Position numbers and translations under genes: made by a program | From: an uncultured Pelagibacteraceae bacterium | Lineage (GTDB): Bacteria > Pseudomonadota > Alphaproteobacteria > Pelagibacterales > Pelagibacteraceae | Length of the DNA: 35,933 nucleotides | Reading direction: 5' to 3' | Assembly (NCBI GenBank): GCA_902566675.1 | Contig: CACFJO010000006.1 | Location: 1-35,933 of the forward strand | The notes under the pieces: generated by a model | What the model was told of the DNA's origin: nothing | Database searches by the model: none | The model's input: the letters and a program-made list of their open reading frames with translations, nothing else | Shown here: positions 19,233-20,375 of the stretch, piece by piece | How the letters are laid out: every line of letters starts with the position of its first letter | Position numbering within the stretch: position 1 is the stretch's first letter

Positions 19233-19309
<77 letters not shown>

Positions 19310-19313
19310 TTAA

Positions 19314-19520
19314 TTATTTGTTCTTTTTAATATTAATTGCTTGGAGTTTATCTTTTTCTTCTTTTATATCGTAAAAAATTTTTTGATCCTCTTTCAATAC
19401 TCTTAATTTAGACTCTTCTAAAGATGAAACATGAAGAAAAATATCCTTTTTACTTTTATCGTCAGTTATAAAACCATAACCCTTTTTGGCGTTAAACCAT
19501 TTTACTTTACCTGATGGCAT
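19314..19520 (-). CDS. cold-shock domain protein (CspA family)
   Basis: MPSGKVKWFNAKKGYGFITDDKSKKDIFLHVSSLE; likely start at the internal Met of the listed ORF (19314-19535). Confidence 0.9.
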   Translation of the reverse strand: MPSGKVKWFNAKKGYGFITDDKSKKDIFLHVSSLEESKLRVLKEDQKIFYDIKEEKDKLQAINIKKNK

Positions 19521-19545
19521 TTCAAATCCTCTCATTTTTAATAAA

Positions 19546-19740
19546 TTAATATCTGTTTTTTAATTTTTGGAGCTTTTTAATTCTTTTTAAGTTTTCAGTT
19601 TGTATCCTCTTTTTTTTTTCAGAGGGTTTTTCGTAAGTGCTTTTCATTTTCATAACCTTAAAAAAACCTTCTTTTTGAAGCTTTCTCTTAAGAACTCTAA
19701 TAGCTTGTTCCACATTATTGTCTTTAACTTCTATTTTAAT
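19546..19740 (-). CDS. rpsU: 30S ribosomal protein S21, apparent ATT start codon
   Basis: Read by hand, absent from ORF track: (I/M)KIEVKDNNVEQAIRVLKRKLQKEGFFKVMKMKSTYEKPSEKKKRIQTENLKRIKKLQKLKNRY*; GGAGG 5 nt before ATT; in-frame TAA upstream with no ATG/GTG/TTG between. Confidence 0.9.
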   Translation of the reverse strand: MKIEVKDNNVEQAIRVLKRKLQKEGFFKVMKMKSTYEKPSEKKKRIQTENLKRIKKLQKLKNRY

Positions 19741-19790
19741 AAAAACCTCCGGTTAATTTTTGTGTAGTTATCATCTGTTTAATAATTTGT

Positions 19791-20375
19791 CTAGACAGAA
19801 GCTGCTTGCGCCTTTTTTTCCTCTCTTATCTTTGCTTTTCTTTCCCTTTCAACTCTTCTTTTTGCTTTTTCTAAACTTTTCTGGAAAGCTTCCTGAGTAC
19901 ATAAAGCTAATATTACTGGGTCTCTAGGCTTTAAATTTGAAAAATTCCAATAGCTTCTTTTTCTTATTAGTGAAACCGTTCCTTTTGTACTTCCAACTAA
20001 TTTCGAAATTTGTCCATCTGTAAGTTCAGCAGCATTCTTACAAAGCCAGAGAATTGCGTCAGGTCTATCTTGTCTTTTTGAGAGCGGAGTATATTTAGGT
20101 TTTTTCCTCTCTTTTATTTCAACCTCATCAAGTTTTTTTATGAGTGACAATTTTTTATCAGGATTCTTTGAACAATTCTCAATTTCTTCTCTCGAGAGTT
20201 GACCAGCTAAAATAGGATTATAAGCTTTTATTCCTTTAGCAACATCGCCATCAGCTATTCCTTTTACCTCAAGTTCGTGAAGCTTACAAAATTCAGCAAT
20301 CTGTTTAAAGGTAAGTGTTGTATTTTCTACTAGCCAAACAGCAGTTGCTTTTGGCATAAATGGAGCATCACTCAT
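19791..20375 (-). CDS. trcR: DUF1013 / cell-cycle transcriptional regulator TrcR family
   Basis: PFMPKATAVWLVENTTLTFKQIAEFCKLHELEVKGIADGDVAKGIKAYNPI, RPDAILWLCKNAAELTDGQISKLVGSTKGTV. Confidence 0.85.
   Translation of the reverse strand: MSDAPFMPKATAVWLVENTTLTFKQIAEFCKLHELEVKGIADGDVAKGIKAYNPILAGQLSREEIENCSKNPDKKLSLIKKLDEVEIKERKKPKYTPLSKRQDRPDAILWLCKNAAELTDGQISKLVGSTKGTVSLIRKRSYWNFSNLKPRDPVILALCTQEAFQKSLEKAKRRVERERKAKIREEKKAQAASV

Follow-up and report, generated by a model that had tools for sequence, protein, structure and literature searches.

The window, meaning the whole 35,933-nucleotide stretch analyzed here (contig CACFJO010000006.1 of assembly GCA_902566675.1, from an uncultured Pelagibacteraceae bacterium), contains the gene row trcR, rpsU, cold-shock gene, initiator tRNA and typA. 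The rpsU gene is present in a single copy in this genome and encodes ribosomal protein bS21, with domain matches along the whole length to TIGR00030 (58.6 bits, cut-off 28.95) and the Pfam model PF01165 (54.5 bits, cut-off 27). On the minus strand the start region reads TAA CCG GAG GTT TTT ATT AAA ATA GAA GTT AAA GAC AAT AAT GTG, and the original prediction had described it accurately as an ATT start preceded at 5 nt by a GGAGG Shine-Dalgarno (SD) core and further upstream by an in-frame TAA. The frame is open between this TAA and the rpsU stop codon (Table 1). None of the codons ATG, GTG and TTG had been claimed to exist between the TAA and the conserved N-terminus, and the frame indeed holds none before codon 10; for this reason the standard ORF list misses the gene and gives only a truncated 55-amino acid fragment beginning at the GTG of codon 10. 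Gene finders limited to ATG, GTG and TTG will truncate or miss SAR11 bS21 in the same way, possibly leading to false reports of its absence.

Translation from the proposed AUU yields the N-terminus IKIEVKDNN, which aligns with the M-x-V-x-V-R-D-N-N of bS21. Both bS21 models match from residue 2 or 3 of the product, the TIGR00030 alignment from position 2, in agreement with the prediction that the protein aligns with S21 from the ATT onward. The start of the neighboring cold-shock gene is probably the second ATG at about 19520 (MPSGKVKWFN), located after GAGAGGA, and not the ATG given in the ORF list.

Table 1. Features at and around rpsU in the window.
Feature	Position	Strand	Basis or remark
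Putative promoter-like element, TAGACA - 17 nt - TAACTA, TG before second hexamer	19765..19793	-	conserved in 152/155
In-frame TAA immediately 5' of the SD, closing the frame	19755-19753	-	sequence
SD core GGAGG of rpsU, spacing 5 nt	19750-19746	-	computed pairing -10.7 kcal/mol
AUU start codon of rpsU (ATT)	19740-19738	-	column of bS21 Met1 in alignment
rpsU codon 3 (ATA)	19734-19732	-	
rpsU CDS, bS21, 64 aa, AUU start, stop 19548-19546	19546..19740	-	bS21 models and relatives
Cold-shock gene	19314-19535	-	
Initiator tRNA	19233-19309	-	

The rpsU start codon in SAR11 and other Alphaproteobacteria

Aligning rpsU starts across SAR11 bears out the predicted start. Among the first 118 relative loci, the aligned codon is ATT in 113, ATA in three and ATC in two, with no canonical codon. 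After other genera were added and duplicates removed, a set of 155 distinct sequences, all from Pelagibacteraceae, contained 138 ATT, two ATA, one ATC, one ACG and 13 ATG starts. A non-canonical codon is consequently found in 142 of 155 sequences, and in all 33 copies from the sister family of the same order (32 ATA, one ATC), every one of them behind an SD. The other large genus, covered by 300 genomes, has AUG in 12 of them, and a second pattern search of the same genomes returned nearly all ATT among the matches listed. The third base of the start codon is T in 138 of 141 AUH copies, far better retained than in the isoleucine codons 14, 46, 51 and 54, which mix ATT, ATA and ATC. The recurrence of a non-canonical codon at this place in the relatives is far beyond chance. 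These comparisons make AUU a well supported start codon of rpsU, conserved in two families and backed by an SD.

The window genome is 65% complete and split into 48 contigs, which could favor a sequencing or assembly error or a pseudogene. The same non-canonical codon is however present in more than 100 independent genomes, single-contig ones included, with both frame and protein conserved, and ATG, which would have pointed to an error in the window, is confined to 13 of 155 relatives in one clade. We consider an artifact so improbable as to be negligible.

Initiation elsewhere, at the GTG of codon 10, the ATA of codon 3 or a TTG or CTG overlapping the SD, is also highly improbable. An ATA stands at codon 3 of 149 of 155 sequences, a TTG or CTG overlaps the SD in some relatives and an upstream in-frame ATG, GTG or TTG is found in 42 of 155. 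Yet the window has CCG at the SD instead of TTG or CTG, in 113 of 155 sequences the stretch from the upstream stop to codon 1 is free of canonical codons, and where a canonical codon has arisen, it is an ATG precisely at codon 1. Codon 10 was rejected and is excluded as a general answer, since GTG or TTG occurs there in only 11 of 155 sequences; initiation at this codon would also remove the conserved N-terminus. The conservation of ATA at codon 3 extends to AUG-start copies. This codon creates an out-of-frame TAG at the start site, and ATTAA an out-of-frame TAA.

By these alignments, the ribosomal protein gene rpsU of SAR11 has a non-canonical start of deep conservation, and a search for an rpsU AUU or AUA start found no report within the literature searchable here. 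The starts of bS21 copies in pelagiphages are ATG (HTVC008M), TTG (Mosig) and ATG (Kolga), so that these copies lack the AUU start of the host.

To place SAR11 in its class, 90 alphaproteobacterial genomes were sampled across families with Pelagibacterales left out. Their rpsU starts comprise 25 ATG, 38 GTG and 13 TTG, with no canonical codon at the expected position in 14. About 12 of these are non-canonical (ATA, ATC, ATT, CTG), and in two a canonical codon lies close by. The control genes rpsO (ATG in 30 of 30) and rpsT (29 of 29 among readable starts) use ATG, as do 25 of 26 rpsU genes from gamma- and betaproteobacteria, sampled as an outgroup to the class. Avoidance of AUG by rpsU is, in this sampling, class-wide and not specific to SAR11.

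Pairing of start codon and SD strength

SAR11 genes mostly lack an SD, and the rpsU SD is among the strongest sampled. In the window it pairs with -10.7 kcal/mol, compared with -7.9 kcal/mol for the best candidate among 40 other genes and a median of -0.9 kcal/mol at first-ATG sites. Genome-level figures come from sampled stretches: in 145 genes of the window's own genome two sites are as strong, and in the sister family, a third genus and an AUU-start member of a fourth genus, none of the 33 to 38 sampled genes has a stronger SD than rpsU. The rpsU SDs of these genomes are alike at -10.7 to -12.6 kcal/mol, the range for four SAR11 genomes; the energy calculation used differs from that behind the Bacteroidota threshold of pairing stronger than about -13 kcal/mol. 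A member with the AUG start has no rpsU SD (+1.7). Within 152 kb of the window's own genome, rpsU is the only convincing case of an SD combined with a non-canonical start.

Each of the 142 Pelagibacteraceae copies with a weak start retains a strong SD, typically GGAGG at a spacing of 5 nt, and the 33 copies of the sister family without exception possess one of the AAGGAGG type. The 13 distinct AUG copies have all lost the SD, retaining at most decaying remnants. A pattern search of 397 genomes of the order, using a pattern that fits Pelagibacteraceae and not the sister family, found no rpsU combining an SD with ATG, GTG or TTG. Comparison within Pelagibacteraceae shows that the weak codon goes strictly with a strong SD. 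In a tree of trcR and rpsU, the AUG copies all fall in one clade (ultrafast bootstrap 83), inside which the one ACG copy, from a Pelagibacter-type genome with an intact GGAGG, is nested. The pairing of codon and SD in SAR11 rests on about two independent switches, so that the individual sequences do not count as independent evidence. The AUG clade without SD seems viable without the weak-codon device and offers a natural control that makes control of bS21 supply testable. Outside SAR11, no dependence of rpsU SD strength on the start codon was detected, AUG and weak starts being alike, and the idea that the two are coupled across the class was rejected.

This trade-off is explained just as simply by output tuning without feedback as by feedback. 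A weak codon with a strong SD and an AUG without an SD would then be sites of equal strength, and lineages would keep one state or the other because an SD together with AUG would overproduce bS21. The loss of the SD in the AUG clade and the failure to find SD and AUG together are expected if selection acts only on the product of both strengths. Were strength all that counted, however, weakening the SD would be a simpler remedy and mixed states should be more frequent, yet AUH codons persist with a near-maximal SD in two families; nor does output tuning account for the class-wide avoidance of AUG by rpsU, which is absent in rpsO and rpsT. We regard output tuning as a real possibility, though a somewhat doubtful one.

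Leader, gene neighborhood and IF3

In 152 of 155 distinct relatives, rpsU is preceded by a promoter-like element whose first hexamer matches TTGACA at five of six positions and is partnered by TGNTA, a combination found in 0.5% of shuffles. The TAG of TAGACA overlaps the trcR stop codon, TAACTA is a poor match to TATAAT, and a consensus promoter scanner missed the element, which we interpret as a putative rpsU promoter with an atypical -10. Its distance to the rpsU start is 18 to 31 nt across relatives, which suggests a leader of only about 12 to 25 nt, itself putative given the weak second hexamer. No conserved leader structure was detected at rpsU, with fold z-scores of about 0 and no better than shuffles, and no Rfam leader matched. 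The lack of structure and of an Rfam leader together with the short putative leader make a classical ribosomal protein-binding leader, that is a structured autogenous operator, unlikely. Coupling to a short upstream ORF seen in leaders (ATGNTAACT...) was set aside because the varying distance between element and start does not keep the frame.

The cold-shock and initiator-tRNA neighbors had been put forward in support of initiation-fidelity control, and this part of the prediction is weak. The initiator tRNA adjoins rpsU in Pelagibacteraceae, but the sister family lacks it at this place and nevertheless has AUA, rendering the neighborhood uninformative; in the other genus, typA does not lie downstream. 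The initiator tRNA of the window has A29-U41 where the first of three G-C pairs would stand. This pair is found in nearly all sampled alphaproteobacteria matching the pattern and represents background, not a SAR11 adaptation, so a special initiator tRNA was rejected as the cause of the SAR11 AUU.

Initiation-fidelity control itself would act through IF3, which represses starts outside AUG, GUG and UUG, autoregulates infC and controls sigR (PMC5472188). Sister-family infC has no ATG, GTG or TTG near its N-terminus and most loci read AAGGAG-ATTAAA-ATA. This suggests an AUA start of the gene, which would be expected if IF3 discrimination operates there. In the window's own genus, infC has a GTG start without SD directly after a TAA, and IF3 is therefore not itself under AUU control in this genus. 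An altered IF3 was discarded as a candidate: at the position of E. coli R131, SAR11 IF3 has a conservative K. The predicted initiation-fidelity control of rpsU remains plausible from sequence. AUU, AUA and AUC vary at the start, with almost never an AUG, the weak codon is combined with a strong SD, and the sister-family infC apparently starts with AUA; the GTG of own-genus infC and the class-wide extent of AUG avoidance weigh against it.

A narrower version, in which rpsU simply tracks free IF3 like infC, independently of bS21 occupancy, is unlikely. In E. coli and Streptomyces, IF3 acts on starts outside AUG, GUG and UUG (PMC5472188), and the sister family apparently uses AUA behind a strong SD for infC as well as rpsU. 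However, IF3-level control alone explains neither the exceptional SD nor the many GUG and UUG starts of rpsU in other alphaproteobacteria, and infC starts with GTG in the window's own family.

Proposed control of bS21 supply and known systems

We propose that rpsU is translated from AUU, with the near-consensus SD (GGAGG, 5 nt) holding the mRNA on the 30S subunit and thereby compensating for the poor codon-anticodon match of AUU with the initiator tRNA. Such a site would be much more sensitive to the state of the 30S subunit than ordinary SAR11 sites with AUG and little or no SD, and this sensitivity may provide a homeostatic set-point for bS21. More rpsU would be translated at low start-codon stringency, when there is little IF3 per 30S subunit or when subunits lack bS21, and less when bS21-complete, IF3-checked subunits predominate. 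A weak-codon/strong-SD initiation module of this kind, acting as a probable feedback set-point for bS21 supply through IF3 stringency, bS21-less 30S subunits or both, is a reading we hold to be evenly poised between right and wrong. That rpsU is regulated at all is likely, with plain output tuning a serious rival to feedback. The retention of AUU or AUA across one of Earth's most abundant bacterial orders, together with the avoidance of AUG across the class, suggests that bS21 supply is under a general control.

bS21 is located on the platform beside uS11 (PMC9976891), and the N-domain of IF3 has a platform site near the bS21 position (PMC8266586). In F. johnsoniae, bS21-less ribosomes favor the rpsU mRNA with its strong SD, and initiation complexes on it are IF3-independent (PMC9976891). 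The SAR11 site unites both traits, a start codon that IF3 would be expected to reject and an SD that retains the mRNA. Regulation by bS21-less ribosomes of this Flavobacterium type would fit at least as well as initiation-fidelity control because the rpsU SD is exceptional in an SD-poor genome. It is conceivable, though rather improbable, that bS21 controls itself via start-codon stringency, with bS21-less 30S subunits holding IF3 differently, accepting AUU or AUA, and so translating rpsU selectively and completing themselves. If true, Alphaproteobacteria as a class would have an equivalent of the Bacteroidota circuit, arrived at by another route.

Few non-canonical bacterial start codons are well characterized (PMC5472188). 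E. coli infC (AUU) and Streptomyces sigR (GTC) resemble SAR11 rpsU in having a conserved start outside AUG, GUG and UUG on a translation or regulatory gene (PMC5472188); the SAR11 case differs in concerning a ribosomal protein with an SD exceptional for its genome, and its IF3 dependence is putative. A ribosomal protein gene with a weak start is also known from Enterobacteriaceae, where the UUG of rpsT (bS20) has been proposed to be necessary for autoregulation (PMC10931766). In contrast to AUU, UUG is a canonical alternative start, autogenous bS20 binding is unproven and alphaproteobacteria use AUG for rpsT. A parallel in the same gene is the rpsU of Bacteroidota, which is autoregulated by bS21-less ribosomes and likewise possesses an exceptional SD in a mostly SD-less genome (PMC9976891). 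In F. johnsoniae, where bS21 Y54, bS18 and bS6 form the anti-SD pocket (PMC9976891), the work concerns SD access and not the start codon, whereas in SAR11 the start codon itself is weak. SAR11 rpsU can be viewed as a variation on a known theme, weak starts on translation genes.
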